Shown here in pieces: positions 22,681-64,000 of a stretch of DNA of 64,000 nt. The translations under genes were made by a program, and so were the position numbers. Positions within the stretch are counted from its first letter, which is position 1; each line of letters starts with the position of its first letter. The DNA lies in assembly GCF_000383975.1 (NCBI RefSeq), contig NZ_KB913018.1, positions 186,001 through 250,000 of the forward strand. Direction: 5' to 3'. The notes under the pieces are model-generated. The model searched no databases. It was not told the DNA's origin and worked only from the letters and a program-made list of their open reading frames with translations. The DNA comes from Natronorubrum tibetense GA33 (GTDB taxonomy: Archaea; Halobacteriota; Halobacteria; Halobacteriales; Natrialbaceae).

Positions 22681-22796
22681 TCACCCCCCAGTCTAGCGAT
22701 CCTACAGGACAGGGGCTTTGCTACTCCTACACAGGATAAAAATAATAAATTTTGTAATATTCTAAAGAGTGGTCTATCGATTGCGGTTATGGTGAT

Positions 22797-25478: not shown

Positions 25479-25579
25479 AGTTTTTTCCAGATGATATTAC
25501 TAACACGAATCGGCATCAAACGCCCAAAGAGGAAGCACATTGGATCGGTATATGAGGTGACAGACAAAGATAATAAGAT

Positions 25580-43467: not shown

Positions 43468-45070
43468 CGGAAAACACCGTATCGATTTGATCGCGAAGTC
43501 TCATTTTGTCGAATTTTCCGGTCGCGGTCTTCGGGATCGACTCTACCGTCCTGATCTCGTCGGGATACCACCAGTCGGGCTGGTCGAGTTCGTCGTCGAG
43601 GTAGGTCAGCAACTCGTCCTTGTCGACATTGCTTCCAGCTGCGGCCACGACGCAGGCCAGCGGCCGTTCCTGCCATTTCTCGTGTGGGACGCCGACGACG
43701 GCCGCCTCAACGACCTCGTCGTGGGCCATCAGCGCGTTCTCAAGTTCGATCGAGGAGATCCATTCCCCGCCGCTCTTGATGACGTCCTTCGCGCGATCGA
43801 CGATCTCGATGTAGCCGTCCTCGTCAATGGTGACGATATCGCCGGTTTTGAGCCAGCCGTCCTCGAAGTCCTCCTCGTTAGCGTCGGGTCGGTTGTAGTA
43901 CTCCGGGACGACGCTCGGACCGCGGACCCACAGTTCCCCGACGGCCTGGCCGTCCCACGCGACTTCGTCGCCGTTGTCGTTGACGACGCGCATCTCGAGA
44001 CCGGGCGAGAGAGTCCCCTGCTTCTTCCGCTTTTCGTACTTTCGGCTCCGATCCCAGTCGCCCATGGACGCCTTCGGCCGCGAGATCGAACCGATGCTCA
44101 TCGTCTCGGTCATCCCCCATGCGTGTTCCATCGTGACGTCGAACTCGTCCTCGTACCGACGCATGACGCCTTCGGGCGCCGCGCTCCCGCCGATGATGAT
44201 CCGCTCGAGGCTCGAGAGATCGCCGCCATGCTCGTCGACGTGTTCGAGGAGGTTGATCCAGACCGTCGGCACACCGGCGCTCAGTGTGACGCCGGCGCGC
44301 TCGATCAGTTCGAGCAGATCGGCGGGGCCGGGCGACGGGCCGGGAAACACCTGTGTCGCGCCGGCCATCGTTGCGGCGTAGGGAAACTCCCAGGCGTTGA
44401 CGTGGAACATCGGCACGACGGGCATAACGACGTCGCGCTCGTCGACGTTCAGTCCCGCGGGCGTCATCGCCATCATCGCGTGGGCGTAGATCATCTTCTG
44501 GGTGTACTCGACGCCCTTCGGTCGTCCCGTGGTCCCGGAGGTGTAGCACATTCCGCCGGGAAGGTCTTCCGTCAGGTCGGGGAACGCGTCGTCTCCGATC
44601 GGCTTGCCGTCTGCGAGAAGGTCTGCGTAGGCGACCGCATTGACGTCGGTTTCCGGAACCGACTCGTCCATGACGACGACCTCGTCGACCGGCAGGTCGG
44701 ACCAGAGCCGTTCGATCGTCTCGAACGGGTCACCGGGATCGATGAACAGGATATCGTCGTCCGCGTCCCCGACGATGTGGACGATGTCGTCGTCGCCCAG
44801 TTGCACGTTGATCGTGTGGAGCTGGGCACCTGACAGCGGTGCGGCGAAGTAGGTTTCGAAGTGCCGGTGATGGTTCCAGCCGAACGTTCCGATTCGATCA
44901 CCCGGCCCGAGCCCGCGGTCACGAAGTGCGTCGACCAGCGATCGAACGCGAGTACCGAACGCGTCGTACGTGTAGTCCGTAATCCCCCCGTGTGTCCGTG
45001 AAATGATCCGCTTCTCTGGAAAGAGATTCGTTGGGCGCCAGAAAAACGGGCGGAGTGTCAGATTAGACAT
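43460..45070 (-). CDS. AMP-forming acyl-CoA synthetase
   Basis: 536 residues from the ATG at 45070 ([20 protein letters not shown]); an upstream start at 45154 gives an unlikely basic extension. P-loop-like motif [19 protein letters not shown]5 motif AWGMTETMS, and the C-terminal hinge [20 protein letters not shown] with the adenylation Lys near TATGKFDK. It activates a carboxylic acid with ATP and CoA. The sequence is of the medium/long-chain type common in haloarchaea. Operon: it lies 231 bp after the other synthetase gene and overlaps the SDR gene. Confidence 0.87.
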
Positions 45071-45301
45071 CGTCCTCGGTCGTTGGCTGCGGGAATCGCG
45101 TGCTGTGCGCCAGCGGTACTTCCCCGGTTCCGGATACACGCGGTATCCGTTCAAACGTTTCTGTCATGACTCTATTTTCGTGATAGAGTCACCCACGCAT
45201 ATGAATCATCTGGGTTTCCCGCGCGCCCGAACCGCCCCAGCGGGACCGCGCGCCGGAAAGCGACCGGGAAGGGGCCGAACCAGCAGCGAGACGTCAGGCG
45301 G

Positions 45302-46945
45302 TCAGTCCCGTTCGCGTTCTTCGAGTTTGTAGCGCTGAATCTTCCCGGTCGCCGTCGTCGGGAGTTCGTCGACGAACTCGATTTCGCGGGGGTAGGCGTG
45401 TCTTGCCAGTCCGTCCTTGACGTGAGACTGGAGGTCCTCGAGCGTCGCCTCAGGATCGTCCGGCGTCTCGACCGGGACCACGAACGCCTTGACGATCTGT
45501 CCTCGCTGGTCGTCAGGGACACCGATCGCGGCGGCTTCCGCAACGGTCGGGTGCTCTATGAGGCTGCTCTCGACCTCAAATGGGCCGATTCGGTAGCCGG
45601 ACGAGATGATGACGTCGTCGCTTCGACCTTCGTACCAGAAGTAGCCGTCCTCGTCCTTGCGGGCCAGGTCGTCCGTAAGCAGCCAGCCGTCGTAGAAGGC
45701 GTCCTCCGTCTTTTGGGGCATCTCCCAGTACTCGTCCATGAGGACCCACTCTCTTGGCTTCGCCGCGACCTCGCCGATCTCGTCGGTTCCGACCGGCTCT
45801 CGGGTCTCGGGATCGAGCAACTCGACCTCGTATCCGGGGGAGGGACGGCCCATCGATCCGGCTTTGGTCTCCATATCGAGGCCCGCGTAGTTGTTGACGA
45901 TCATCCCCGCCTCGGTGAGGCCGTACGTGTCGTGGACCTTGAGGCCGAGGTTGTCCTCGAACCAATTGTACACCTCCGGGTTCAGCGGTTCGCCGGCGCT
46001 ACTCAGGACGCGCAGGCTCTCGAAGGAGTGGCCCTCGAGTACGTCGTCGCCAGCGGCGATGATCCCGCGATACGCACTGGGTGCGGCGCCCATGACAGTG
46101 ACGTCGTGTTCGTCGAGAATCCGGACCCAGTGCTCCGCGTCGAACTGTCCCGAGTGGAGCAGCCGGGTCGCGCCGAGCGCCATCGGTGCGAACCCGGCCG
46201 TGAAGAGGCCGTACGACCAGCTCGGGTCCGCAGCCCCCCACACGAGGTCGTCCTCGGTGACGTCCATCGCGTATTTCGTGTGGGGATACAGGATCGGCAG
46301 TACCTTGTGAGACATGACCACGCCCTTTGGCGGCCCCGTCGTCCCGGAGGTGTACTGCATCGCCGCCGCTTCGTCCATACTGGTGCGGACGACGTCGTAC
46401 TCGGTCGACTGGCCGTCGACGAGGCTGTCGTAGGCGTAATCGCTGGCCTCGTTGTCGCCGTCTCCGACGCTGATGACGTCGAGTTCGGTCTCGATATCCA
46501 GGCTCGTGACCGTGTCGTCGTGATCGGTGTGGTAGAGCAACAGCTCCGGATCGCAGTCGTTGACCCGGAACTCCACGGCCTGTTTCTCGAACGCGGTGAA
46601 CAGGGGAACGTGGATCGCCCCCGTCTTCCAGATGCCCAGAACGGTGATGATCGTCTCCGGGATCTTCGGGAGCAGCGTCGTGATGCGATCGCCGCGTTCG
46701 ATTCCAAGTTCCGCCAGCGCGTTCGCGACTCGATTCGACGCGTCGCGAAGTTCGGTGAACGTGTACTCGGAGAGCTTCCCCTCCTCCGAGACCCACGCGA
46801 AGCCCACGTTCCCCGATCCGGCGTGTCGATCGACGGCTTCGTGGGCCATGTTCAATTCCTCCGGCGCGTCCCAGTCGTACGTTTCGAGAACCGACTCCCA
46901 GTCGAACGACTCGTATACCTCCTCGTATTCGTCACTCGTTAGCAT
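45302..46945 (-). CDS. AMP-forming acyl-CoA synthetase (acetyl/propionyl-type)
   Basis: 547 residues from the ATG at 46945; the GTG at 46963 would lie within the TATA region. Motifs: MQYTSGTTGPPKGVVMSHKV, YGLTEAGMIVNNY and YFWYEGRSDDVIISSGYRIG, with catalytic Lys in TATGKIQRY. Overall the sequence resembles acetyl-CoA synthetase-like (ACSM/medium-chain) enzymes: a 'PSWSYGLFTAGFAPMALGA' motif like that of the medium-chain group is visible. It is the first gene of the minus-strand run 46945 to 42700 and diverges from the thiolase gene. Confidence 0.87.
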   Translation of the reverse strand: MLTSDEYEEVYESFDWESVLETYDWDAPEELNMAHEAVDRHAGSGNVGFAWVSEEGKLSEYTFTELRDASNRVANALAELGIERGDRITTLLPKIPETIITVLGIWKTGAIHVPLFTAFEKQAVEFRVNDCDPELLLYHTDHDDTVTSLDIETELDVISVGDGDNEASDYAYDSLVDGQSTEYDVVRTSMDEAAAMQYTSGTTGPPKGVVMSHKVLPILYPHTKYAMDVTEDDLVWGAADPSWSYGLFTAGFAPMALGATRLLHSGQFDAEHWVRILDEHDVTVMGAAPSAYRGIIAAGDDVLEGHSFESLRVLSSAGEPLNPEVYNWFEDNLGLKVHDTYGLTEAGMIVNNYAGLDMETKAGSMGRPSPGYEVELLDPETREPVGTDEIGEVAAKPREWVLMDEYWEMPQKTEDAFYDGWLLTDDLARKDEDGYFWYEGRSDDVIISSGYRIGPFEVESSLIEHPTVAEAAAIGVPDDQRGQIVKAFVVPVETPDDPEATLEDLQSHVKDGLARHAYPREIEFVDELPTTATGKIQRYKLEERERD

Positions 46946-46962
46946 ACCATCGGATGGTTGCA

Positions 46963-46972
46963 CCTTATATAT
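46963..46972 (-). promoter_or_regulatory. TATA box of the acyl-CoA synthetase operon
   Basis: TATATAAG reads on the minus strand at 46971-46964, about 23 bp from the ATG at 46945: a leaderless arrangement. It also supports this ATG over the GTG at 46963, which lies next to the box. Confidence 0.55.
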
Positions 46973-47095: not shown

Positions 47096-48268
47096 ATGGG
47101 AGAACGAGCCACAGTAGTAGGGGCCGGTATGACGAAATTCGGCCCTCACGAGCAACCACTACCTGAACTGTTCGCCGACGCCGCACTGCCTGCGCTTTCC
47201 GACGCCGGGATCGGTCAGAATGAGATTGATGCGTTCTACCTGGGCAACACGCTCGGTGGGATGACAGAGAATGCGTCTCATTTGGCACCTGCACTCGCGA
47301 GTCATATCGGCCTCCGCAGCATCCCGTGTCAGCGATTCGAGGACGCCTGTGCCACGTCGTCGAGTGCGTTCAAACACGCCGTCCAGGCCGTCGAAAACGG
47401 TGTCCACGACACCGTGCTGGTTGGGGGGGTCGAACGGTGTACGCCGACAACCGGGAAGGAGACGGACGAGATGACGAAGATATTCGCGAGCGCGACCCAC
47501 CGCCAGTATGAACAGCCGACGGGCATTACGTTTCCTGGCGTCTTCGCTCTGCTGACGAAACGCCACATGCATGAACATGGGACAACCCGTGAACAACTGG
47601 CCGAGGTCGCAGTGAAGAATCAGCATCACGGGAGTATGAATCCACGGGCCCACTTCGGCGAAAACGCGACCGTCGATGATGTCCTCGAGAGTCCGGTCAT
47701 CGCCGATCCGTTCCACCTCATGGACTGCTGTCCGTTCTCGGACGGCGCGTCCGCGGTCGTCGTCACGTCTCCGGAACTCGCGGACAGCTACGACGGCGAG
47801 GGCGTGAACGTGACCGGGATCGGACACGCGACGGACATTGTCCCGATCGCCGACAAGCAGGGGCTGACGGAGACGAGAGCCGCACGGGACGCGGCAGCGG
47901 AGGCGTACCGACAGGCGGGTATCGATGCCGACGACGTTGACTTCGCAGAGGTCCACGACTGCTTCACCGGGGCGGAAGTGATCGCGGTCGAGGCGCTCGG
48001 ACTCGTCGAGGACGGCAAAGGCGGAACCGCCGCAGCCTCCGGACTCACGGCGCTCGGCGGCGAGGTCCCGGTAAACCCGAGCGGCGGACTTAAGGCGAAA
48101 GGACATCCGATCGGCGCGACCGGAACCGCCCAGATCGTCGAACTCACCGAACAACTCCGCGGAGAGACCGGCGACCGCCAGGTCGAGGACGCAGAGATCG
48201 GAATCGCACACAATCTCGGTGGAGACACTGCGACGACGTTCGTGACCGTCATGGAGGTGACAGCATGA
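47096..48268 (+). CDS. Thiolase (acetyl-CoA acyltransferase, SCP-x type)
   Basis: 390 residues. Nucleophile Cys in RFEDACATSSSAFKHAVQAV; His motif NPSGGLKAKGHPIGATG; and AEVHDCFTGAE. The C-terminal Cys-Gly-x-Gly of biosynthetic thiolases is replaced by AHNLGGD, as in the archaeal/SCP-2 group. It cleaves a 3-oxoacyl-CoA with CoA. It overlaps the DUF35 gene by 4 bp; in archaea such thiolases form a complex with the OB-fold DUF35 partner. Confidence 0.86.
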   Translation: MGERATVVGAGMTKFGPHEQPLPELFADAALPALSDAGIGQNEIDAFYLGNTLGGMTENASHLAPALASHIGLRSIPCQRFEDACATSSSAFKHAVQAVENGVHDTVLVGGVERCTPTTGKETDEMTKIFASATHRQYEQPTGITFPGVFALLTKRHMHEHGTTREQLAEVAVKNQHHGSMNPRAHFGENATVDDVLESPVIADPFHLMDCCPFSDGASAVVVTSPELADSYDGEGVNVTGIGHATDIVPIADKQGLTETRAARDAAAEAYRQAGIDADDVDFAEVHDCFTGAEVIAVEALGLVEDGKGGTAAASGLTALGGEVPVNPSGGLKAKGHPIGATGTAQIVELTEQLRGETGDRQVEDAEIGIAHNLGGDTATTFVTVMEVTA

Positions 48269-48648
48269 GTGAACTGGATCTCGCGACCGAACCGGACGAA
48301 CTGACCTACGAGGACTGGGCGAAGGCGCTCCGCGAAGGGACGCTCCTCGGACAGCGATGTGGCGATTGCGCGCACGTTACTGGTGCACCGAAGGCGGCCT
48401 GTGCCCGCTGTGGCAGCCTGGACCTCGAGACGATCGAACTCTCGACGACGGGGGAGGTCTTCACCGAGACCAGGCTCGAGGTCGTCCCAGAAGGTTACGA
48501 GCGGCCCCACCACGTCGTACTCGTATCGCTCGGCGACGCACGTGTCATGGCCCACGTTCCAGAAGCCGTCGAGATCGGCCAGCAGATCGAACTGACCGAC
48601 ACACTCGAGGTCGACGGCGCCGTCGCCCCGGTGTTCGAGCCGAACTGA
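48265..48648 (+). CDS. DUF35 Zn-ribbon/OB-fold acyl-CoA-associated protein
   Basis: 127 residues. A rubredoxin-like Zn ribbon RCGDCAHVTGAPKAACARCG (two CxxC pairs, residues about 31-50) precedes an OB fold (GEVFTETRLEVVPEGYERPH; VVLVSLGDARVMAHVPEAVE). DUF35 proteins bind and stabilise thiolases or HMG-CoA synthase and may shuttle acyl-CoA. It overlaps the thiolase stop by 4 bp, so the pair forms one unit. Confidence 0.85.
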   Translation: MSELDLATEPDELTYEDWAKALREGTLLGQRCGDCAHVTGAPKAACARCGSLDLETIELSTTGEVFTETRLEVVPEGYERPHHVVLVSLGDARVMAHVPEAVEIGQQIELTDTLEVDGAVAPVFEPN

Positions 48649-50029: not shown

Positions 50030-51220
50030 ATGTCGCCCAAATACCGATTTTCGTACGACCCGGGGACGATCGTCTACGGCCGGAACTGCCTCGATCGAAT
50101 CGAGGACGAACTTGAGTGGATCGGCGCCAAACGAGCCCTAATCGTCTGTGGTACGACGGTCGGCTCCATCGACGACGTAATCGATCCGGTCGTCGACGGG
50201 GCCGGTGACCGACTCGCCGGCGTGTTCGACGAAACGACGCCGGACAAGCGACTGACAACCGTATTCGACGGCGTCGACCGAATGGACGAGGGCGAGGTCG
50301 ACGCGCTGGTGAGCCTCGGCGGCGGGAGCAGTCTCGATATCGCAAAGGTAATGAGCGTCGTCGCAGCCAGCGACCGGTCTCCCGATGACGTTCGAGCGAC
50401 GTTCGAACGCGAGCGGACGATCCCGATTCCGGACGCCGAGCTGACACCGATCCTCACGATTCCGACGACGCTCGCGGGATCGGACCTCTCCGCGGTCGCC
50501 GGGATCACCGCTCGCAAAGGCGGGCTCACCCGCGGTGCACTCATCGATGACCGGCTGATGCCGAGCGCGCTGTTCTACGATCCGGCGCTCTTCGAAACGA
50601 CCCCGCACGAGATTCTTTGTGCATCGGCTATGAACGGGTTCGACAAGGCCGTTGAGTCACTGTACGCACGCAACTCGACGCCGATCACGGACGGGACCGC
50701 AGTGCGGGGGCTGCGCCTGCTCGACCGAGGGTTACCGCGACTCGGCGACGGCGACCGCAGCGAGGAGACGCTACACGACTCAATCATGGGAACGGTCCTG
50801 GCACAGTACGGTGCGCTGGGCGGCGAGAATGTTACCGCGTCGCTCATTCACTCGTTCGGCCATGGGATCTCTCGCGGCTACGCGATCCAGCAGGGCGGTG
50901 CCCACGGTATCATCGCCCCGCACGCGCTTCGGTACCTGTTCGATAACGTGTACGGTCGGCGCGACCTGCTGGCGGAGGGGTTCGACGTCGACGAGACGGA
51001 CTCGCCCGAGGAGACCGCCACTGCGGTCGTCGAAGCTGTCACGGAGGTTCGCGACGCGCTCGGTCTGCCCTCGCGGCTTCGCTCGATCGATGACCTCTCG
51101 GAAGACGACTTGCCGCACATCGCCGTCGAGGTCGAGGACGATGTGATGATGGACAACGTGCCCGAAGGATTCGAGCCGACGGCGGACGAACTCGAGGACG
51201 TCCTTCGCAATATGTGGTGA
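50030..51220 (+). CDS. Iron-containing alcohol dehydrogenase
   Basis: 396 residues, group III metal-dependent alcohol dehydrogenase. NAD motif LVSLGGGSSLDIAKVMSVVA; PTTLAGSDLSAVAGIT; metal ligands Asp in CASAMNGFDKAVESL, and the three His in IHSFGHGISRGYAIQQGGAH. Family members oxidise primary or 4-hydroxy alcohols (including 4-hydroxybutyrate) or reduce aldehydes. In this cluster it could feed the carboxylic acid that the ligases activate, or act on a hydroxyacid. It is divergent from the acyl-CoA dehydrogenase gene. Confidence 0.87.
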   Translation: MSPKYRFSYDPGTIVYGRNCLDRIEDELEWIGAKRALIVCGTTVGSIDDVIDPVVDGAGDRLAGVFDETTPDKRLTTVFDGVDRMDEGEVDALVSLGGGSSLDIAKVMSVVAASDRSPDDVRATFERERTIPIPDAELTPILTIPTTLAGSDLSAVAGITARKGGLTRGALIDDRLMPSALFYDPALFETTPHEILCASAMNGFDKAVESLYARNSTPITDGTAVRGLRLLDRGLPRLGDGDRSEETLHDSIMGTVLAQYGALGGENVTASLIHSFGHGISRGYAIQQGGAHGIIAPHALRYLFDNVYGRRDLLAEGFDVDETDSPEETATAVVEAVTEVRDALGLPSRLRSIDDLSEDDLPHIAVEVEDDVMMDNVPEGFEPTADELEDVLRNMW

Positions 51221-52218: not shown

Positions 52219-53736
52219 TTAGTCGTCGTCAGTAACAACCTTTGTCGGCGTGTCGCCGGTTTGGTGGAACTGAATGAAACCCTGAAGCTCTTCGCCGGTC
52301 GGCCGGCGCGTCGCTAGGGTCACTGCGACGAAGGTGATCACGCCGAGTGGTACCGTTACCAGGACTTCTGATTGTTCAACGGGCATATATCCACCCAAGA
52401 ACAGGACCACGTACGAGCCCCCTCCGACGAGCATCGAGGCAATCGCACCTGGTGCGTTAGCGCGTTTCCACCACGTTCCGATTGCCAATGCAGGGAACAA
52501 TCCGGACGCCGCGCCGCCAGCGATGATCGTAGTCATGATCCCGATGATTCCCGGCGGCGAAATCGCAAAGTACGCTGCCGCGAACGCACCGACCCAGATC
52601 ACGAGTGTTCCGAGTCTTGTCTCTTGTTGCTCTGTCAGACCAACATCCAATGATTCGGGAATGTCATGCGAGACGCTCGCACTGAGCGCGACTAGCAGTG
52701 CGTCCGTCGAGGACATCACCGCCGCCAGCAACCCGGCTGCGCCAAGCCCTTGAACGATCGGGCCGGTGTACTCGACCAGAACCGCGTAGTAGAAGTGGTC
52801 AGCGGTCGCGAGGTTCGGCTCGAGCGCCATCGCAGCTCCCGCGACGAAGAATGCGGACAACACGAACGCGCTAATGTAGAGTAAATTCATCCACATGAAG
52901 CCCCGTCGGGCGGTCTTTGCGTCGGCGCTTGCGAGCGCCCGCTGCCCGAACTGAGGCAGACCAAGGAATGCGAGAATCCATGTGAATCCGATCCCGAGGA
53001 CCATCAGGTACGGTGCACTATTTCCAGCAAAGGTCGGATCGTTCGCCATTGCACCGGACAGCGTCCCGCCTACGCCCATGTCCGCGAAGATGATCGGCAG
53101 CGGGAGCAGGGTGAGGATGAACATCATGATTCCCTGTATGAAGTCGGTCCACGTGACTGCCCACATCCCGCCCAGCGATACATACAGAGCAAAGATAACT
53201 ACGCTAACAAGTATACCCAGTTCATAACCGAGCGAGGGCAGGACGAATTCCATCGTGATCCCCGCCGCAGTCAGCTGGGGTACGAGGTACGCCCAAGATG
53301 CTACGGCGAAGATAATCCCGGCTACCAAGCGGACTGTGGTGCTTTGATATCGTTTTTTAAGGTAGTCCGGAACCGTGTAAACGCCACTGCGGCGCATCGG
53401 TGCAGCGATGGTGATCATCATCATCAACCCTCCAGCACAGACGGCCACGACAACCATTGTCGAGAACGCAGCACCGAAAGCGTACGCGAAACCTCCGAAC
53501 CCGAAGAACGAACCGGCGCTCGCCGTTACCGCGAAGTACGCGAACACTTGAACGTAGAGCGGAATGTTCCCGCCCGCGATCCAGAAGTCGCCGGTGCTCT
53601 CGCGCGACTTTTTGAAGAAGTACACCCCGATCGCCATGACCAAGATGAAGTACAGTACCAGCATCAATATGGCTTCCGGACCGCTCGATACCTCGGGCGT
53701 GACCTGCATTGGCGAAATCATGTTACCATACCCCAT
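52219..53736 (-). CDS. Sodium:solute symporter (SSS family)
   Basis: 505 residues, about 13 membrane segments (AILMLVLYFILVMAIGVYFF; GSFFGFGGFAYAFGAAFSTM; GILVSVVIFALYVSLGGMWA and more), including the SSS signature-like GLGAAGLLAAVMSSTDALLV. Family members use sodium to import monocarboxylates, proline or pantothenate. It overlaps by 14 bp the small membrane protein encoded upstream, a pairing seen in many archaeal and bacterial carboxylate symporters. Likely importer of the acid degraded by the surrounding enzymes. Confidence 0.86.
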   Translation of the reverse strand: MGYGNMISPMQVTPEVSSGPEAILMLVLYFILVMAIGVYFFKKSRESTGDFWIAGGNIPLYVQVFAYFAVTASAGSFFGFGGFAYAFGAAFSTMVVVAVCAGGLMMMITIAAPMRRSGVYTVPDYLKKRYQSTTVRLVAGIIFAVASWAYLVPQLTAAGITMEFVLPSLGYELGILVSVVIFALYVSLGGMWAVTWTDFIQGIMMFILTLLPLPIIFADMGVGGTLSGAMANDPTFAGNSAPYLMVLGIGFTWILAFLGLPQFGQRALASADAKTARRGFMWMNLLYISAFVLSAFFVAGAAMALEPNLATADHFYYAVLVEYTGPIVQGLGAAGLLAAVMSSTDALLVALSASVSHDIPESLDVGLTEQQETRLGTLVIWVGAFAAAYFAISPPGIIGIMTTIIAGGAASGLFPALAIGTWWKRANAPGAIASMLVGGGSYVVLFLGGYMPVEQSEVLVTVPLGVITFVAVTLATRRPTGEELQGFIQFHQTGDTPTKVVTDDD

Positions 53737-54049
53737 CTTCGATCTTCATCAGCCAGTACTCGTAAATGAAGCCACATGCGATGATTACGAGGCCCCATAT
53801 CACGGACGTGTACGAGAACAGCGTTAATTCACTATCGCCGGGTTCGGCGTATATGGGTAGTCCCGCCAGAAGTATGAACGAGATTACCACTACTGACGCG
53901 ATCCCGATCATCGGCTTGAACCCCGGCTGGTCCGTGAAGCTGATGTCTTCGTACGCTATTTGTTCCGTTTCGGTCGGTCCTGTTACCTCTCCCCCTGTCG
54001 GTTCACTGTCGAGGGGGTTTGCGTCGTCTTCCGGTGTTTCGCTTGCCAT
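53723..54049 (-). CDS. Small two-span membrane protein paired with the symporter
   Basis: 108 residues. A Glu/Thr-rich cytoplasmic N-terminus precedes two hydrophobic segments (PMIGIASVVVISFILLAGLP and YTSVIWGLVIIACGFIYEYW). Overlap with the symporter gene implies coupled translation. It probably is a helper or second subunit of the transporter, by analogy with other SSS pairs. Confidence 0.7.
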   Translation of the reverse strand: MASETPEDDANPLDSEPTGGEVTGPTETEQIAYEDISFTDQPGFKPMIGIASVVVISFILLAGLPIYAEPGDSELTLFSYTSVIWGLVIIACGFIYEYWLMKIEDGVW

Positions 54050-54690: not shown

Positions 54691-55899
54691 CTAAAAGGTC
54701 GGAAGCGGGCCTAACTCATCCATATCGATGTCTTCGTATGCGTCACGAGCGATCACGCGCTTGTGGACCTCGTCGGGACCGTCGACGATGCGGAACTGTC
54801 GCACGTTCTCGTAGAAGTCGGCGATAGGCAGGTCCTTTCCGATGCCGCTCGCCCCACAGAGCTGGAGCGCCGTATTGATCGCGTCTTCCGTGACGTTCGC
54901 AGTGTAGAACTTACACATCGATACCGGTACGCGGGCCTGATTGCCGCGCGAAATTTCGTTGGCGGCGTGGCGAACCATCGTCCGCGCGGCGTGGAGGTTG
55001 GTTTCGGCTTCCGCGATATCGAACCGAACACCTTGCTTGTCCGCGATCGCTTCGCCGAACCCCTCCCGCTCACTCGTGTAGGCCTTCGCGACCTCCAGCG
55101 CTCGAGTGGCCATGCCGGAGTATCGCATGCAGTGGGTGAGTCGGGCCGGACCGAGACGCTTCTGTGCGATTGTGAATCCTTCACCTTCCTCCCCCACCAG
55201 GTTTTCTTCCGGGACGCGGACATCGTCGTAGATGATCTCCGAATGAATATCGGACGTAATATCATCCCCCAAGTGGGGAATGTCCCGCTTTACTTCGAGA
55301 CCGGGCGTGTCTTCGGGTACAATGATGAGTGAACAGCCTTCGTACGGGTGGCTATCCTGGTCCGTTCGCGCGAGCGTGATGAAGAAGTCAGCTTCGCTGC
55401 CGTTCGTGATCCACCACTTGTGGCCGTCAATGACCCACTCGTCGCCGTCTCTCTCTGCTGTCGTCTTGATCATTTTCGGATCTGCACCGCCGCCCTGCCG
55501 CGGCTCGGTCATCGAAAATGCGGATGTGAGTTCGCCCTCCAGGAGCGGCTCCAGCCATCGCTCCTGTTGCTCCTCGGTTCCCGCGAGTTCGAGCGTATGC
55601 ATGTTCCCTTCGTCGGGGGCGTCCACGCGCATCGCCGGCGGAGCGAGCAGGCTCCGGCCCGCCTCCTCGAACAGCGGGAGCACGTCGCGAAACTCGACAC
55701 CCATACCGCCGTGTTCTTCCCCGATCTGTGGGGCGTACAGGTTTCGGTCTCGAGCCTCTTCGCGGAGATCTTCGATCACGTCGTCGGGAACTTTCGTCCC
55801 GCCTTCCAGTTCCCGCTCGCGTGGAATGACCACCTCGTCAACGAAATTACGCGCGCGCTTGGCTAACTTTCTCGCCTGCTCGGAGTCTTGGTACTCCAT
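54691..55899 (-). CDS. Acyl-CoA dehydrogenase (2), ACAD10/11-like
   Basis: 402 residues. FAD-binding FSMTEPRQGGGADPKMIKTT and DGHKWWITNGSEADFFITLA. Distinct C-terminal motifs GPARLTHCMRYSGMATRALE and LCGASGIGKDLPIADFYENV, with FRIVDGPDEVHKRVIAR, are those of the ACAD10/ACAD11 group rather than straight fatty acyl-CoA dehydrogenases. That group includes enzymes that act on 4-phosphohydroxyacyl-CoA after a kinase domain of the aminoglycoside phosphotransferase fold. Such a kinase is encoded nearby at 58369-59424. The motif reading is mine; the substrate is inferred from that pairing. Confidence 0.8.
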   Translation of the reverse strand: MEYQDSEQARKLAKRARNFVDEVVIPRERELEGGTKVPDDVIEDLREEARDRNLYAPQIGEEHGGMGVEFRDVLPLFEEAGRSLLAPPAMRVDAPDEGNMHTLELAGTEEQQERWLEPLLEGELTSAFSMTEPRQGGGADPKMIKTTAERDGDEWVIDGHKWWITNGSEADFFITLARTDQDSHPYEGCSLIIVPEDTPGLEVKRDIPHLGDDITSDIHSEIIYDDVRVPEENLVGEEGEGFTIAQKRLGPARLTHCMRYSGMATRALEVAKAYTSEREGFGEAIADKQGVRFDIAEAETNLHAARTMVRHAANEISRGNQARVPVSMCKFYTANVTEDAINTALQLCGASGIGKDLPIADFYENVRQFRIVDGPDEVHKRVIARDAYEDIDMDELGPLPTF

Positions 55900-56132
55900 A
55901 CTGGTACTCTTGTTAGAACTCGATTTATAATTATTCCCCGCGGATACACGACCCGGGAGACCGCGACCCGTGTCAGCGGCGGATCTTCAGTAAAACTATT
56001 TACTGAAATAGCTCGATATCGACGCACGGTCACTGCACGGTGAGGCGAGGCGTGTCGGGAGCGATGGACTCGCGCCGGCATGGGAACTCGCGATCGTCCT
56101 CGCGCATCGAGCAGCGATCGGAGTATTTGACC

Positions 56133-56864
56133 ATGATGGACGAAATCAGCCTCGACGGACGGACTGCGATCGTAACGGGCGGTGGACGCGGAATCGGACG
56201 CCAGATTGCACTCGAATTCGCTGACCGCGGCGTAGATGTCGTCGTCGCGGCCAGAAGTGAAGACGAGATTACCGACGTTGCGTCGATGATAGACGAACGG
56301 GGCGGCGAAGCCGTCGCGGTGCCGACCGACATTACCGTTACCGACGATGTCGGCACGCTCTTCGAGCGCGCTCGAGAGGCTTACGATCAGGTGGACATCC
56401 TGATCAATAACGCCGGAATCAGCGTCAACGAGACGATCTGGAGTCTCTCGGACGAAGAGTGGCAGAACGTTATCGACGTGAACCTCAGCGGTACCTTCCG
56501 TTGTACCAGAGAGGCGTTGACCGGCGGCATGCTAGAGCGCGACGAGGGCACGATAATCAACATGAGTTCGCTTTCCGGAAAGGTCGGATTCACACAGACG
56601 GGCCCATATACCGCCTCGAAGCACGGAGTTCAGGGACTGACAAATGTCCTGTCGAAAGAGCTCAAGGAGACGGATATCCGCGTGAGTGCCGTCTGTCCCG
56701 GCCAGGTGAAGACCGAACTGACGGACGATATCGTGGCAGTCGATCGGCTCGAGACCGACGATATCACCGATATTGTCCTCTTTCTCGCGACTCGACCACC
56801 GTCCGTCTACATCCCCAAAATCGTCGCCGTGCCGCCGGAGTCGATTCCGCTCGTTCGACACTGA
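56133..56864 (+). CDS. Short-chain dehydrogenase/reductase (2)
   Basis: 243 residues from the ATG at 56133; a further ATG at 56136 is equally possible. An upstream start at 56040 would add an arginine-rich extension that lies in promoter-like DNA. NAD(P) motif IVTGGGRGIGRQIALEF; NNAG in ILINNAGISVNETIWSL; catalytic Ser-Tyr-Lys in NMSSLSGKVGFTQTGPYTASKHG. The tail LATRPPSVYIPKIVAVPPES is typical of FabG-type SDRs. In the cluster it could be the oxoacyl-CoA reductase or a 3-hydroxyacyl-CoA dehydrogenase. Confidence 0.85.
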   Translation: MMDEISLDGRTAIVTGGGRGIGRQIALEFADRGVDVVVAARSEDEITDVASMIDERGGEAVAVPTDITVTDDVGTLFERAREAYDQVDILINNAGISVNETIWSLSDEEWQNVIDVNLSGTFRCTREALTGGMLERDEGTIINMSSLSGKVGFTQTGPYTASKHGVQGLTNVLSKELKETDIRVSAVCPGQVKTELTDDIVAVDRLETDDITDIVLFLATRPPSVYIPKIVAVPPESIPLVRH

Positions 56865-56906
56865 CGGATCAATCCGAGAAATCCCGCTCAACCGCGGGTG
56901 CGGCGA

Positions 56907-58076
56907 TCAGACGACGTCGTTTTTTTCGAGTTCGTCCAGCCGTTCCTCCGAGAGGACTCGCGAGAGGATCTCATCGGTGTGTTCGCCAAATTCGGGGGCC
57001 GGCGTACGCATGTCGTCAATGTCACTCGAGGATTTCGCCGGGAAGCCAACGTACGAGAATTCGCCGTCGCCGATGTCCATTTCCCGGACCATCTCCCGCG
57101 ATCTGAGCTGTGGATGTTCGAACACCTCGTCGAACTCGTTGATCGGTGCGAACATCGTCTCGTCGGATAGGTACTCCTCCCATTCGTCACGGGTGCGCTT
57201 TTCGAACTCGGACTGGAGCTCCTCACGAGCGTACTCGGCGTCGTCCCCGGTCGCGAACTGGTACTCCGTCAGGTCCTCGCGGCCGAGTTCTTCGAGGAAC
57301 TGGTCCCAGAACTTCTCTTCGCGGGGGGCGATGGTTACGTACTTCCCGTCTTTTGTCTCGTAAACGTTGTAACAGGGTGCCTCCATCGCCGCGGGCGAGC
57401 GTTCTTCTTCCGGTAACTCGTCGCTCATGAACGCGCGCCAGCTCTGGCCGGTCGACAGCGACGCAACGACATCTGTCATCGAGACATCAAGATACTGACC
57501 GCCGTTTCCGGCCTCGCGGTCGAGAAGTGCGGACGTGATCATGAATGCGCTGAACATCCCGCCGACTTTGTCCCCGATCTGATATGCTGGAACGGCCGGG
57601 AACGTCCCGTCTTTCGAGACGGTATCGTTCATCAGTCCCGCGACCCCGACGTAATTGATGTCATGGCCGACGCGGTCGCTGTAGGGACCGTCCTGTCCGT
57701 AGCCGGAGAGCGAACAGTAGACGATATCCTTGTTGACCTCGCGAACGTCGTCGTATCCGATGCCGAGGCGATCGACGACGCCCGGCCGGAACTGTTCGAA
57801 GACGACGTCCGCGTCGGCGGCCAGTTCGAGAAACGCCTCGCGACCCGCCTCGCTTTTCAGGTCCAGCGTTACGCTCTTTTTGTTCCGGTTGACGGAGTGG
57901 AAGAGCGCACCCGAGTCCGTCGACTCGACCTCCGGTTCGAGCCAGCGGGCGTAGTCTCCCCTCGTCGGCTCCTCGATCTTGACGACTTCGGCGCCCATGT
58001 CTGCTAGCAGCATTGTCCCGTACGGACCCGGCAACAGCCACGTCAGATCGAGAACGGTGTAGTCCTCGAGGTTCAT
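56907..58076 (-). CDS. Family III CoA-transferase (CaiB/BaiF)
   Basis: 389 residues from the ATG at 58076 (MNLEDYTVLDLTWLLPGPYG); the extension to 58205 is basic and in promoter-like sequence. The motif LADMGAEVVKIEEPTRGDYA, the catalytic Asp in DRVGHDINYVGVAGLMND, and the C-terminal FAPINEFDEVFEHPQLRSRE are family hallmarks. These enzymes move CoA from an acyl-CoA donor to a free acid without ATP. It would provide an alternative to the ligases for activating the substrate. It is convergent with the SDR gene and divergent from the kinase gene. Confidence 0.87.
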   Translation of the reverse strand: MNLEDYTVLDLTWLLPGPYGTMLLADMGAEVVKIEEPTRGDYARWLEPEVESTDSGALFHSVNRNKKSVTLDLKSEAGREAFLELAADADVVFEQFRPGVVDRLGIGYDDVREVNKDIVYCSLSGYGQDGPYSDRVGHDINYVGVAGLMNDTVSKDGTFPAVPAYQIGDKVGGMFSAFMITSALLDREAGNGGQYLDVSMTDVVASLSTGQSWRAFMSDELPEEERSPAAMEAPCYNVYETKDGKYVTIAPREEKFWDQFLEELGREDLTEYQFATGDDAEYAREELQSEFEKRTRDEWEEYLSDETMFAPINEFDEVFEHPQLRSREMVREMDIGDGEFSYVGFPAKSSSDIDDMRTPAPEFGEHTDEILSRVLSEERLDELEKNDVV

Positions 58077-58368
58077 GATCGCGTCCCTCCGGTCACCGTC
58101 CGCATTCGTCGACCGTTTCTCCCGTTTCCGTGGTCCGCCTCGGACGGGAATGCCGTCGTTCGATCGGCTACCATGTGTGGTGCTGGCATACTCTTCGAGT
58201 ATCACGTATTCCCTTATTAAGCATTTGGAGACGACCGCTCGCGTCGGCAGGAGCGGCGGCGATGACCGTGCTCCTGAGACTGCCAGCGATTCAGCATCGT
58301 GAGAGTAGTGACCGTAAGCACAATGTGAAGATTAAACTACTACGACAACGAGTATCAAGCAGAGGACG

Positions 58369-59424
58369 ATGGCCGAAAACAAAACCTATCTTGACCGGCT
58401 TGTCGACAAATCCGCGTTGAAAGAGTATCTAGAGCGGGAGCTCGGCGACGCCAGAGCAGTCACCGTCCAGTACCACGACGAGGGTCACTCGAACGAGACA
58501 CTGTTCATTGAGTGGGGCGAGCAGAATCTCGTCATGCGACGGCCGCCGGCCGGGGAGACGGCGGACACAGCCCACGATGTTCTCCGGGAGTACCGCGTCA
58601 TCTCTTCGCTCGAGGATACGGGCGTTCCGGTCCCGAATCCAATACTGGCCTGCGACGATACGTCGGTGATCGGCGGCAAGTTCTACCTGATGGAACGTCT
58701 CGAAGGCGATGTCATCCGCGATCACGAGCCCGATCGGTTCGCGACGGCCGGGCAGCGTCGTCAGGTCGGAGAAACACTCATCGACACGCTCGCGGAGATT
58801 CACACGATCGACTACGAAGCGGTCGGGCTGTCGGATCTCGGTCGTCCGGAGGGGTACACGGAACGACAGGTCGAACGCTGGGGGAAGCAGTTCGACTGGG
58901 CATACGAGACGACAGCGGACGAACGGGATGTACCCCACATCGACGAAATCGCTGAGTGGCTCGAGGCGAACATTCCCGAGGAGTACGAGCACACGCTCGT
59001 ACACGGCGACTTCAAACTCGACAACGTGATGTACGCCCCCGGGACCCCGCCGAAGATCAACGCCGTGCTGGACTGGGAGATGGGAACCCTTGGCGATCCG
59101 TCGGCTGATATCGGCTGGATGCTCTGTTACTGGGACACCGATCCCCTCATCGACGAACTGATGCCAACGTTCCTCGACCAACCAGGATACCCGAGCAAGG
59201 AGGAACTCGTCGAACGGTACGAGGAGCAGTCAGGACTCGAGTTCACGAACCGCCGGTTCTACGTCGCGCTAGGTCTGTACATGCTCATCGCGGTCTGTGA
59301 GATGTTCTACGCGCGGTATCTCAACGGGAACAGCAACGACGACCTCTACCCGAAGATGGGATCCGTCGTACCGGAGATCAGCCAGCGAGCAAAGGAAGTT
59401 ATCGACGGCGAACGCGACATCTGA
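58369..59424 (+). CDS. Aminoglycoside-phosphotransferase-like kinase, ACAD-associated
   Basis: 351 residues. APH-fold kinase with catalytic loop LVHGDFKLDNVMYAPGTPPK (Asp, Asn) and metal-binding INAVLDWEMGTLGDPSADIG. This version, with 'VLDWEMGTLGDP', is the one fused to acyl-CoA dehydrogenases in ACAD10/11 and found beside them in bacterial levulinate (lva) operons, where the kinase phosphorylates a 4-hydroxyacyl-CoA. It sits in this window with acyl-CoA dehydrogenase (2) on the other strand, 2.5 kb away, and precedes the HADH/ECH fusion in the same direction. Function is inferred from those relations. Confidence 0.82.
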   Translation: MAENKTYLDRLVDKSALKEYLERELGDARAVTVQYHDEGHSNETLFIEWGEQNLVMRRPPAGETADTAHDVLREYRVISSLEDTGVPVPNPILACDDTSVIGGKFYLMERLEGDVIRDHEPDRFATAGQRRQVGETLIDTLAEIHTIDYEAVGLSDLGRPEGYTERQVERWGKQFDWAYETTADERDVPHIDEIAEWLEANIPEEYEHTLVHGDFKLDNVMYAPGTPPKINAVLDWEMGTLGDPSADIGWMLCYWDTDPLIDELMPTFLDQPGYPSKEELVERYEEQSGLEFTNRRFYVALGLYMLIAVCEMFYARYLNGNSNDDLYPKMGSVVPEISQRAKEVIDGERDI

Positions 59425-59697
59425 ACTCGCACCCGAAACTGGGAACCGGCCCGTTGGCGATCATGGCTGCGTCGTCGACAAAGCGGGCAGACGTTGTACA
59501 CCATCTCCGCGTACTGCTGGACGGTCCGTCAATCGTCCGCGTCACGAGAGTCGACCGAAGTCTCTGTCAATCCTTCAGCAGTGTGATCGCCTCGGTGAGA
59601 CAGTCGCTCCGTGCTGGCTTCCAGAGCGGAGGAGTGTAAACCACAGTCGGGGAAAGCTATAACACATGTCATGGTAAGTATCTACACGAAGTCAACA

Positions 59698-61671
59698 ATG
59701 AGCGATCCACTAGCCGACCGTGTAGACGCTGTTACTGTCGTCGGTGCCGGAACGATGGGCCATGGAATCGCCCAGACGTTCGCGACGGCCGGATACGACG
59801 TCACTATCTTGGACATCGACAACGACGTGCTGGCAACGGCGCTCGAAAAGATCAATGAGAGCCTGACGAAACTCGGCGAGAACCCCGACACCATCCTCAA
59901 TCGGATCGAGACGACCACGTCTGACGAGGAGGCCTACGGGGACGCTGACCTCGTCGTCGAGGCGGTTCCCGAGGACATCGAGCTGAAAGAGAACATCTTC
60001 GGTACTATCGACGAACTCGCACCGGATCGAGCGATCCTGGCGACCAACACCAGTACGCTCCCGATCACCGAAATCGCGTCCGCGACGGATCGGCCGGGCG
60101 ATGTCGTCGGGATGCACTTCTCGAATCCGGTTCAGCTGATGGAAATTGTCGAGGTCATCCGCGGCGAGGAGACGCGCGATGACGTGTTCGAAGCGGCCCA
60201 AGAGATCAGCGAAGAGATTGGAAAAATACCGGTCCTCGTCGAGAAGGATATTCCCGGCTTCCTCATCAACCGGATCAATCTCCGCTTCTGGCTTGAGGGC
60301 GTACGACAGGTCGAATGGGGGATTCAGGACGAGAAAACTATAGACGCAGCACTCCGCCGAATCGGTCTCCCGATGGGGCCGTTCGAGGTACTCGACTTCA
60401 GCGGTATCGATGTCGCCACGATGGCCGCCCGATCGATGCGCGACCGGGGAGTCGACCTGCACGTGCCCGACCTCCTCGAGGAGAAGACCGAGGCCGAAGA
60501 TCACGGGATGAAAACCGGTGCGGGCTTCTACACCTATCCGAAACCGGGAGAGTACTCGCGCGTTGATATCCCGCGCGAACGGCGGTACGACTTCGATCCG
60601 AAGGATCTCCTCGCGCCCGCCGTCAACGAGGCAGCGTGGCTGCTGGCCAACGACGTGACTACGAAGGCGGAGATAGACAAGGCGATGCAGATCGGGATGA
60701 ACTGGCCGCGGGGTCTCCTCGAAATGGCCGACGAGTACGGTATCGATCGACTCGTCGACCGACTTGAGACGCTGCGCGAGCGGTCCGGCTGGGAGGAGTA
60801 CGAACCTCATCCCCGTCTCCGGGAAATGGTCTCGAACGACGAACTCGGACGGAAGACGGGAACCGGGTTCTACGAGTGGAGCTACGAGCAGATGGAGTTC
60901 AACACGGTCCAATACGAGCGACGCGAGTATATCGCCTGGATCACGCTCAATAGACCCGAGCAGCTCAACGCCTTGGACGAACCGAGCTGGGAGGGACTGA
61001 ACGACGCGCTCGAGTGTGCAGCAGCGGACGACAAGGTCCGCGCGACGATCCTTCGAGGATCGGGACGCGCATTCTGCGCCGGCGACGATATCGCGGAGAT
61101 CCAGAGCTGGGAGTCGACCGAGGACGCCGCGGAGATGGTCGAGGAGATTCTCGGTCCGACCGTCCAGACGCTTCGGGACCACCCGAAACCGGTGATCGCC
61201 GCGGTCGACGGCGTCGCGAACGGGGGCGGTTGTGAACTCGTGCTCCTGAGTGATCTCGCAGTCGCCTCCGCGGACAGCGATTTCGCCCTGCCCGAGGCGA
61301 AGATCGGTGCGCTTCCGCCGATCGGACTCACATACGGTCGGATGAGCCTCGGCAAGAAATCGATCATGGAACTCGCGATGACGGGTGAGCAGCTGACCGC
61401 TACCGAAGCTGAATCGATGGGGATCGTCAACTACGCTGTCGATGATGGACAAGTCGAGGACATCGCCCGCGAACTCGCCCGTTCGACGTCGGCGTCGGGC
61501 CCGAAGTCGGTCGCGGAGATGAAAGACCTGTGGTCGAACATGGAGGACGACCTGCTCGAAGGGTGGTTCGGCGACGCCATGGACCGTCTCGTCGAGCGGA
61601 CTCAGTCCGAGGAGGCTGAAGAGGGGCTCGCGGCGTTCCTTGAGAAGCGTAATCCGGACTGGCAGCGATAG
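59698..61671 (+). CDS. 3-hydroxyacyl-CoA dehydrogenase/enoyl-CoA hydratase fusion
   Basis: 657 residues from the ATG at 59698; a start at 59611 would add a basic extension over the promoter. Residues about 10-190: NAD domain (TVVGAGTMGHGIAQTFATAG; DLVVEAVPEDIELKENIFGT). About 190-400: two 3HCDH C-terminal domains (GFLINRINLRFWLEGVRQVE). About 400-657: crotonase domain with GRAFCAGDDIAEI and DGVANGGGCELVLLSDLAVA, carrying the oxyanion hole and the Glu (GGCELVL). It does hydration and oxidation steps of beta-oxidation. Follows the kinase gene with 273 bp between. A TATA-like GCTATAAC lies at about 59656. Confidence 0.9.
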   Translation: MSDPLADRVDAVTVVGAGTMGHGIAQTFATAGYDVTILDIDNDVLATALEKINESLTKLGENPDTILNRIETTTSDEEAYGDADLVVEAVPEDIELKENIFGTIDELAPDRAILATNTSTLPITEIASATDRPGDVVGMHFSNPVQLMEIVEVIRGEETRDDVFEAAQEISEEIGKIPVLVEKDIPGFLINRINLRFWLEGVRQVEWGIQDEKTIDAALRRIGLPMGPFEVLDFSGIDVATMAARSMRDRGVDLHVPDLLEEKTEAEDHGMKTGAGFYTYPKPGEYSRVDIPRERRYDFDPKDLLAPAVNEAAWLLANDVTTKAEIDKAMQIGMNWPRGLLEMADEYGIDRLVDRLETLRERSGWEEYEPHPRLREMVSNDELGRKTGTGFYEWSYEQMEFNTVQYERREYIAWITLNRPEQLNALDEPSWEGLNDALECAAADDKVRATILRGSGRAFCAGDDIAEIQSWESTEDAAEMVEEILGPTVQTLRDHPKPVIAAVDGVANGGGCELVLLSDLAVASADSDFALPEAKIGALPPIGLTYGRMSLGKKSIMELAMTGEQLTATEAESMGIVNYAVDDGQVEDIARELARSTSASGPKSVAEMKDLWSNMEDDLLEGWFGDAMDRLVERTQSEEAEEGLAAFLEKRNPDWQR

Positions 61672-61822: not shown

Positions 61823-62824
61823 TCACGCTGAGTCATCGATACGTCCGAGAGCGTCGATGAGTGATTCAATCTCGGCCACGGACGCGTCCATCGAGGGCAT
61901 CGCGATGATGACGTCAGCACCGTCGCGAGCGTACCGCTGGAGCTGCTCCCGGACATCTGATTCGGTTCCGGAAACGGTTAGTTCATCGACCATCCGGCCG
62001 GAGATCGCGTCGACTGCCGCCCCGCGGTCTCCGTCTCGGAACAGGGCGTGGGCCCTGTCCGGCGCATCCCCGAAGCCGTAGTCGTTGACCTGTTCGTTGT
62101 ATCCCATCGCCATTTCCTGTGCGAGGAGGTAACGGACGCGTCGCTCAGCGCGATCTGGATCGTCGTCGACGGCGATGGGAACCCACGGAGCGACGGTCAG
62201 TTCGCCCGGATCCCGGCCGGCGTCTCTCGCGCTTTCTCGGACGTCAGTGACGTGACTCGAAAACGAGGGCTGCGGAATGAACGCTGGCAGCCAGCCGTCT
62301 GCGTACTCTCCGGTCAGCGCGCGGTTCGCGTCGCTTATCGCGGCGTTGAATACCGGGACCTCGTCGGTCGTCTCGAGCGCCATGGAGTACGGGCCGATAT
62401 CGAACACCTCCCCGTCGTACTCGACCGTCCCACCGGCCGTCGTTTGCCGGACGATTTCGATCGTTTCGCGCAGCCGTCGGAGCGGCCGGTCGAAGGCCAT
62501 CCCGTGCCACCGTTCGACGAGCGGTGGCGAACTCACACCGACTCCGAGCAGCGCCCGCCCGCTCGAGAGCTGCTGCAGGGTCGCCGCGCTCATCCCGAGC
62601 AACGTGGGGCTCCGGGAATAGACGCTGGCCACGCCGGTCCCGATCCGAACGTCCGTCGTGCACTGGGCGACCGCGGCGAGCGTGGCTACCCCGTTGCTGC
62701 CGGATGCTTCCTGTTTCCACACCGAATGGAGGCCCGTCTCGTCAGCTCGCCTGGCGAATTCCAGCGTTTGCTCAAGCGATACGTGCGAGAACTCGTCGGG
62801 AAGGACGAATCCGAGTTTGGTCAT
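61823..62824 (-). CDS. LLM-class flavin-dependent oxidoreductase
   Basis: 333 residues, luciferase-like monooxygenase barrel (TLEFARRADETGLHSVWKQE; TTDVRIGTGVASVYSRSPTL; SSGRALLGVGVSSPPLVERW). Archaeal members use F420 or FMN; the RRLRETIEIVRQTTAGGTVE and GTESDVREQLQRYARDGADV motifs fit the F420/methylene-H4MPT reductase-like group. The role in this cluster is not obvious: it may oxidise a side product or be independent. Confidence 0.82.
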   Translation of the reverse strand: MTKLGFVLPDEFSHVSLEQTLEFARRADETGLHSVWKQEASGSNGVATLAAVAQCTTDVRIGTGVASVYSRSPTLLGMSAATLQQLSSGRALLGVGVSSPPLVERWHGMAFDRPLRRLRETIEIVRQTTAGGTVEYDGEVFDIGPYSMALETTDEVPVFNAAISDANRALTGEYADGWLPAFIPQPSFSSHVTDVRESARDAGRDPGELTVAPWVPIAVDDDPDRAERRVRYLLAQEMAMGYNEQVNDYGFGDAPDRAHALFRDGDRGAAVDAISGRMVDELTVSGTESDVREQLQRYARDGADVIIAMPSMDASVAEIESLIDALGRIDDSA

Positions 62825-63624: not shown

Positions 63625-64000
63625 TCACGAGTAAGATAGGTTGACTTGAATGACGTTCGCGGTCTCGAGGATTCGGTTCGGATACTCTTTGTGGATCATT
63701 GCATCGGTAAGACGGTTCGCCGGGCCGTAGATGGCGATACCGGCGGTAACAGCGTCGCCGCCGGTCTCAACCGGTGCACCGACGCCGCGCATTCCCTCGA
63801 ACCGTTCCTCGTCATCGATAGCGTAGCCTACGTCTCGGATCTGTGTGAGATCCTCGAACAGTTCGTCCGAACTCGTAATCGTGTTCCTGGTCTTCGGTGC
63901 CAGACCGTATCGATCGACGATCTCGCGGACGCGATCGTCGGAAAACTGCGCGAGAATTGACTTTCCGCTCGCGGTCGTGCTCAGTCGCGTCTTCGTCCCG
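63625..64000 (-). CDS. IclR-family regulator, 5' end beyond the window
   Basis: The minus-strand frame is open to the window edge, so only 124 C-terminal residues are seen: LSTTASGKSILAQFSDDRVR, EIVDRYGLAPKTRNTITSSD, ELFEDLTQIRDVGYAIDDEE, RFEGMRGVGAPVETGGDAVT, then AGIAIYGPANRLTDAMIHKE. This is the IclR effector-binding domain (Thr-Ala-Ser-Gly-Lys, then Asp-Asp-Glu-Glu and Gly-x-Ala-Pro-Val near the end). It is separate from the regulator at 25580-26356. It may control the acyl-CoA cluster on its left. DNA-binding part not visible. Confidence 0.82.
   Translation of the reverse strand, partial: GTKTRLSTTASGKSILAQFSDDRVREIVDRYGLAPKTRNTITSSDELFEDLTQIRDVGYAIDDEERFEGMRGVGAPVETGGDAVTAGIAIYGPANRLTDAMIHKEYPNRILETANVIQVNLSYS

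Follow-up and report, generated by a model that had tools for sequence, protein, structure and literature searches.

A kinase and an acyl-CoA dehydrogenase of the ACAD10/11 type, encoded as separate genes in Natronorubrum tibetense and widespread in haloarchaea, with a predicted role in 4-hydroxyacyl-CoA breakdown

Introduction

The 4-hydroxyacyl-CoA kinase/acyl-CoA dehydrogenase (ACAD) route has been assigned to genes only recently, in bacteria in 2017 and in mammals in 2024–2025. In mouse ACAD11, residues R626, H634 and R637 hold the 4-phosphate of the substrate beside the catalytic D753, and changing R626, H634 or R637 to alanine or leucine abolishes phosphate elimination (PMC12440821). The ACAD10/11 pocket is widened by a proline (Pro463 in human ACAD11), which is thought to suit bulky substrates (PMC11153573). 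A split arrangement of the two enzymes is functional, since both halves of ACAD10 can be replaced in vitro by split orthologues from bacteria (PMC11342911). Here we describe a kinase gene and an ACAD gene in a 64,000-nucleotide stretch of the haloarchaeon Natronorubrum tibetense GA33 (contig NZ_KB913018.1, positions 186,001 to 250,000; hereafter the window), which, judging from sequence comparison, probably encode two proteins that divide the ACAD10/11 reaction between them, comparable to LvaA plus LvaC. Our analysis suggests that their most likely role is the ATP-dependent 4-phosphorylation of a 4-hydroxyacyl-CoA, followed by elimination of the phosphate to yield a 2-enoyl-CoA for the neighboring beta-oxidation genes.

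With mammalian ACAD10 and ACAD11 (PMC12440821, PMC11342911), the locus shares both enzyme halves, the ACAD residues for 4-phosphoacyl-CoA, the kinase loop and an Arg reported to contact CoA, yet it has two separate genes, no HAD domain and an ACAD that is about 34% identical to the corresponding half. The Pseudomonas lva operon, set beside the window by description, likewise has a split kinase and an ACAD with a catalytic Asp, adjoined by SDR oxidoreductase and acyl-CoA ligase genes, but it differs in gene content and order. Bacterial kinase–ACAD pairs in Actinomycetota, Deinococcota and Pseudomonadota, such as those on Rhodococcus pRB98, Thermus pTT27 and Caulobacter p1, belong to the same two families, and in Rhodococcus pRB98 a CaiB gene also adjoins the pair. 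These bacterial genes are usually adjacent and co-directional, whereas linked haloarchaeal pairs are mostly divergent (all five linked pairs in the set of loci L056–L064 lie on opposite strands), and the haloarchaeal proteins form their own clades in both trees described below.

Results and Discussion

Dehydrogenase and kinase

Both open reading frames were confirmed at the coordinates given in Table 1 with intact frames, and the two genes are separated by about 2.5 kb with two other genes between them. The dehydrogenase has the full ACAD domain set (Pfam PF02771/02770/00441) and the motifs KRLGPARLTHCMR (R248...R259) and VDGPDEVH (Asp373). All seven ACAD11-specific positions (mouse R626, R631, H634-C-M-R637 and D753) are present as R248, R253, H256, C257, M258, R259 and D373, with R248 equivalent to R626, R253 to R631, H256 to H634, R259 to R637, and D373 to D753, which is Glu in ordinary ACADs. 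The complete set occurs in just three of the 21 ACADs of the genome (the window's, C1:855434 and C1:3517544) and is missing in the other 18. One ACAD of the genome that lacks this signature (L010) also has Asp at the catalytic column; the Asp alone is not diagnostic. The aligned stretch of human ACAD11 contains two candidate pocket prolines, with Pro at both positions in the window ACAD, and A94-P95-D96 is invariant across the 26 sequences of the alignment.

The nearest solved relatives of the dehydrogenase by sequence are 4hr3 from M. abscessus and ACAD11 (2wbi, 8v3u), which come before all ordinary ACADs. Its structure model (pLDDT 90) gives fold matches to 4hr3 and the same two ACAD11 entries with Z scores of 50.2, 47.6 and 46.2, the next being 44.0. 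A careful maximum-likelihood tree splits the sequences that carry the residue set, including ACAD11 and bacterial relatives, from ordinary ACADs at 100/100. Haloarchaeal sequences, the window ACAD among them, form one clade at 100/100 that is separate from the ACAD11 clade, and the second ACAD of the window groups with the ordinary enzymes. By these comparisons the product is an ACAD10/11-type enzyme, which bears out the assignment made in an earlier note on this DNA.

The kinase carries an APH domain (Pfam PF01636, 7e-47) with the motifs VHGD(214)FKLDN(219) and VLDWEMGTLGDP. Searches with phmmer matched it to 9o56 (1e-66), ACAD11 (1.6e-55) and 3dxp (1.9e-51), with 25-hydroxysteroid kinase at just 1.6e-17 and antibiotic kinases above 1e-3. 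Six residues (R73, E74, R166, D214, N219 and D235) are invariant in all 28 aligned archaeal and bacterial kinases. D214 and N219 are the Asp and Asn of the HGDxxxxN loop (D220...N225 in mouse ACAD11), D235 is the metal-binding Asp, E74 is the alpha-C Glu, and R166 corresponds to ACAD11 R176, an Arg said to contact CoA. The R86 of the ACAD11 paper has no secure match to the chain numbering; the Arg beside the alpha-C Glu is the invariant R73. In a tree built by a quick method, some of whose branches are long, haloarchaeal kinases form one clade with a support of 98, the exception being an APH protein of Natrinema gelatinilyticum that is unrelated and long-branched; the window kinase sits with the kinases of the Natrinema caseinilyticum and Halomarina clusters. 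Its sequence thus identifies the product as an ACAD10/11-type kinase with intact catalytic residues, and both phmmer and the tree place it beside the ACAD11-type kinases, away from unrelated APH enzymes, as had been proposed.

The top fold match of the kinase is 3dxp (Z 32.2), and the same search lists 25-hydroxysteroid kinase 9ft5 at Z 29.2 and Rv3168 at Z 29.1. Because 9o56 is unlisted and ACAD11 is ranked low (Z 21.5 over 229 residues), the fold ranking alone does not separate kinase subfamilies. The high matches to 9ft5 and Rv3168 would agree with a pair that takes off a hydroxyl from a position other than C4, or that works on larger acyl-CoAs (branched, isoprenoid or sterol-like), as 25-hydroxysteroid kinase does. 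So would the proline-widened pocket of the ACAD10/11 group and the nearby thiolase with its DUF35 partner, which is of the SCP2/lipid-transfer type. 25-Hydroxysteroid kinase (9fsg/9ft5; PMC8449060) is also an APH-fold kinase for ATP-driven hydroxyl removal, but it is 24% identical and its target is a tertiary alcohol on the side chain of a sterol. We consider a substrate of this kind unlikely, as the kinase sequence matches ACAD11 and 3dxp much better than it does 25-hydroxysteroid kinase, and the partner ACAD retains its residues for binding a phosphate at C4 beside FAD. In addition, the ACAD10-dependent phospho-intermediate, studied with 4-, 5- and 6-hydroxyhexanoate, has been described as 4-hydroxy-acid specific (PMC11342911).

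With a 4-hydroxyacyl-CoA as the favored substrate, a carboxylic acid would be converted to its CoA ester by a ligase or the CoA-transferase, and a 4-oxo group, if present, could be reduced to 4-hydroxy by the SDR, the LLM-class oxidoreductase or the iron-containing alcohol dehydrogenase (Fe-ADH). The kinase, given its family and intact catalytic residues, is predicted to move the gamma-phosphate of ATP onto the 4-hydroxyl of the acyl-CoA. As proposed for ACAD11, Asp373 of the ACAD would take the alpha proton while the beta hydride is parked on FAD, and the 4-phosphate, held by R248, H256 and R259, would then be expelled and the hydride returned to give a trans-2-enoyl-CoA with no net oxidation. 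The 3-hydroxyacyl-CoA dehydrogenase/enoyl-CoA hydratase (HADH/ECH) fusion and the thiolase with its DUF35 partner may complete the round by hydration, oxidation and thiolysis, producing acetyl-CoA and a shortened acyl-CoA. Levulinate is one candidate substrate among several.

Distribution of the pair

The occurrence of the two genes was assessed in 61 genomes from the genus, family and order to which the window's genome belongs, with presence called at E below 1e-100 for the kinase and for the ACAD. Both are found in the same 37 genomes and both are absent from the same 24, with none having just one. When the phylum was sampled evenly (295 genomes), 22 genomes, all belonging to the order of the window's genome, had both, and again no genome had a single half. 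Fisher's exact test, treating genomes as independent, gives 1.7e-17 for the 61 genomes and 1.2e-33 for the 295. There is a clear gap below the cut-off, with the next-best kinases at about 1e-45. As a control, ordinary ACADs are present in 59 of the 61 genomes, so the pair is not merely a marker of beta-oxidation. The kinase–ACAD pair is a widespread haloarchaeal trait, with hosts that include cultured laboratory organisms such as Haloferax mediterranei (locus L047: ACAD 10632-11849, kinase 11989-13059), and its presence in so many relatives rules out a pair peculiar to this archaeon. Of the 56 kinases, 25 have the ACAD within 6 kb, and these linked pairs come from 21 of the 37 haloarchaeal genomes; the co-occurrence holds even where the pair is unlinked. 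In bacteria, a signature ACAD is present in 53 of 71 kinase loci, lying within 300 bases in 46.

ACAD and APH folds are common, and with 21 ACADs and several APH-fold proteins in the genome, an antibiotic- or metabolite-type APH kinase could have come to lie beside an ordinary fatty acyl-CoA dehydrogenase as a functionally unrelated neighbor. The diagnostic residues, the tree placement, the exact co-occurrence across genomes and the linkage in both haloarchaea and bacteria make this hardly credible. For each protein taken singly, residues, tree and co-occurrence rule out an unrelated APH enzyme and an ordinary ACAD.

Archaea are unmentioned in the ACAD10/11 papers that we found, and a limited literature search on archaea and ACAD11 returned nothing on the pathway. 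The chemistry is known, while its spread through haloarchaea appears to be undescribed; the interest lies in this spread and in the exact co-occurrence. If our interpretation is true, the route would extend to the third domain as a trait of 37 of the 61 sampled haloarchaeal genomes, in which the two halves are at present annotated just as ‘phosphotransferase family protein’ and ‘acyl-CoA dehydrogenase’. The perfect co-occurrence of the halves as separate genes also gives independent support to the two-step mechanism.

Several points weigh against this interpretation. The haloarchaeal ACADs are only 33–44% identical to the aligned bacterial ones and about 34% to ACAD11, and with identities this low, the position or size of the substrate could have shifted. 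The role was assigned from sequence comparison and family analogy, and the ACAD and kinase trees took in ACAD11 and left out LvaA and LvaC. The Fisher values ignore shared ancestry, yet the pattern covers many families. The two genes are unlinked in 16 of the 37 genomes, and the window's own genome has three ACAD10/11-type ACADs but two kinases.

The two extra ACADs and the second kinase (C1:2929115, locus L024) are on the chromosome and mutually unlinked, the kinase being near another HADH/ECH fusion. Unlinked chromosomal copies, found in many haloarchaea, suit a housekeeping role, and the clearing of 4-hydroxy acids that arise from lipid peroxidation or as side products has been proposed for mammalian ACAD10/11 (PMC12440821). 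That the window pair serves such clearance and not growth on external carbon seems quite unlikely to us, with the pair clustered with genes for uptake, CoA activation and an IclR-type regulator on a small replicon, as for a catabolic island.

Gene neighborhood and candidate substrates

The neighbors named in the earlier note, namely two acyl-CoA ligases, CaiB, SDRs, the Fe-ADH, the HADH/ECH fusion, the thiolase with its DUF35-type partner and the SSF symporter, do exist, but a second ACAD of the ordinary type had been overlooked (Table 1).

Table 1. Features of the kinase–ACAD locus, with positions in the window
Feature	Position	Strand	Basis
ACAD10/11-type acyl-CoA dehydrogenase, predicted 4-phosphoacyl-CoA phospho-eliminase, 402 aa	54691..55899	-	sequence, fold, tree
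Phosphate-binding helix R248-x4-R253-xx-H256-C-M-R259 of ACAD	55123..55158	-	
Catalytic Asp373 of ACAD	54781..54783	-	
ACAD10/11-type (APH-fold) kinase, predicted 4-hydroxyacyl-CoA kinase, 351 aa	58369..59424	+	PF01636, phmmer, fold
Kinase catalytic loop D214...N219	59008..59025	+	
HADH/ECH fusion, putative downstream beta-oxidation steps	59611..61671	+	PF02737, PF00725, PF00378
CaiB/BaiF class III CoA-transferase, candidate CoA activation	56907..58205	-	cluster conservation
SDR oxidoreductase, candidate 4-oxo/4-hydroxy interconversion	56040..56864	+	PF00106 2e-60
Second SDR	42700..43467	-	
LLM-class (F420-type) oxidoreductase, conserved cluster member	61823..62824	-	closest solved relatives, TIGR04024 below cut-off
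IclR-family regulator, truncated by window edge	63625..63999	-	
Acyl-CoA ligase 1, candidate LvaE-like step	43460..45154	-	best solved relative 1ult
Acyl-CoA ligase 2, acetate/medium-chain ligase family	45302..46963	-	
Thiolase, SCP2/lipid-transfer type	47096..48268	+	PRK06064 above cut-off
DUF35-type thiolase partner; zinc-ribbon protein per annotation of N. caseinilyticum orthologue	48265..48648	+	
Ordinary ACAD, catalytic Glu, without phosphate-binding residues	48694..50040	-	
Fe-ADH	50030..51220	+	PF00465; NCBIfam equivalogs all below cut-off
SSF sodium:solute symporter, candidate uptake	52219..53736	-	PF00474 2e-40

The closest annotated cluster is on the N. caseinilyticum plasmid NZ_CP100446 and is orthologous, with identities of 91% for the ACAD, 84% for the kinase, 84% for HADH/ECH, 81% for CaiB, 86% for ligase 2 and 88% for the thiolase. 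The block that recurs there comprises thiolase, DUF35 partner, Fe-ADH, ACAD, CaiB, kinase, HADH/ECH, LLM, IclR, amidase, MaoC and ligase; its last genes lie past the window edge and were compared by eye. Symporter, Usp, SDR and second ACAD are missing at the corresponding place. The orthologous plasmid cluster of Halomarina sp. PSR21 (ACAD 77%, kinase 72%, HADH/ECH 75%, CaiB 81%, symporter 68%) has IclR, LLM, HADH/ECH, kinase, CaiB, ACAD, Usp, a small open reading frame and the symporter in common with the window, whereas no Fe-ADH orthologue was found in this stretch and the thiolase is just 40% identical. Two open reading frames of the window, 51386-51910 and 53723-54049, have no Pfam or NCBIfam match and are kept in the Halomarina cluster at 59% and 46%, respectively; the latter overlaps the start of the symporter gene. 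The earlier statement that the locus encodes all steps from uptake to acetyl-CoA is thus plausible as a gene list, but several of these genes are not conserved in the related clusters.

None of the tested cluster enzymes reached a substrate-specific NCBIfam cut-off except the thiolase, whose model describes a broad subfamily. CaiB and the ligases were dropped as substrate-specific enzymes because no equivalog cut-off was reached. The Fe-ADH, previously likened to 4-hydroxybutyrate dehydrogenases, scored 95.5 bits with NF058672 against a cut-off of 500 and is not specifically of that type. Levulinate and 4-hydroxyvalerate had also been suggested as substrates, which our analysis does not support; the SDR and ligases match no substrate-specific model.

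A narrower form of our interpretation is an archaeal lva operon for levulinate (or 4-hydroxyvalerate or gamma-valerolactone), in which the symporter would provide uptake, ligase 1 would act as LvaE and the SDR as LvaD ahead of the kinase and ACAD. The two core enzymes are the same, and an SDR, acyl-CoA ligases and a symporter of the cation/carboxylate family are nearby. The levulinate-induced cluster of Pseudomonas citronellolis also has a cation/acetate symporter and is without lvaB (PMC6692424), and orthologues of ligase 1 (61–80%) are found near the kinase or ACAD in the other haloarchaeal loci L048, L054, L061, L171 and L172. Nevertheless, we find this assignment doubtful given the lack of a substrate-specific model for the SDR and ligases, the absence of symporter and SDR at the corresponding place in N. 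caseinilyticum, and the additional core genes for CaiB, LLM, amidase and MaoC, which are not lva genes. Moreover, the DUF6285 protein, a small partner in a Thermus operon that we used as a proxy for LvaB although the equivalence is a guess, was not found in the 61 haloarchaea, leaving them with no LvaB candidate by this proxy. On pTT27 of Thermus thermophilus HB8 (L173), the kinase–ACAD pair is followed by genes for DUF6285 and a histidine phosphatase, making DUF6285 a possible LvaB equivalent. When plasmids were searched with DUF6285 from Thermus as the query, the matches came from Thermus only.

The closest solved relatives of the LLM-class protein are Mer (1z69, 2e-30) and an F420 alcohol dehydrogenase (1rhc, 3e-13), and it scored 235 bits with TIGR04024, under the cut-off of 345. 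Haloarchaeal loci L055, L056, L057, L059 and L172 also have oxidoreductases of the LLM class (F420-type) close to the kinase or the ACAD. The enrichment in the neighborhood (three of nine loci, about 0.01 by a simple binomial, with 17 such genes in the window's own genome) is too weak to rest on. It is very unlikely, in our estimate, that the 4-hydroxyacid route of haloarchaea is a distinct, F420-coupled one, with the LLM protein reducing a 4-oxoacyl-CoA by means of F420H2, replacing the NAD(P)H-dependent LvaD and feeding the kinase–ACAD pair.

Replicon and other features of the window

The window lies on a contig of 257,517 bases in a genome of 4.93 Mb, and all searches gave Halobacteria as its close relatives. 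Since the window contains an Orc1/Cdc6-type initiator gene (34595-35797) and a ParA-type ATPase gene (40535-41530), the contig is probably a plasmid-type replicon; the kinase–ACAD cluster is near these replication genes. A TnpB/Cas12f-like TNB-domain protein (PF07282), a transposon-associated nuclease, is encoded at 36904-38178. The region 14001-26000, which encodes a TPP enzyme and an ABC transporter of the dipeptide/oligopeptide type, has a G+C content of about 44–50% versus about 60% in the cluster and looks like separately acquired DNA. The product of 2078-8938 has 2286 residues and contains Big_1 Ig-like domains; it is probably a large surface protein.

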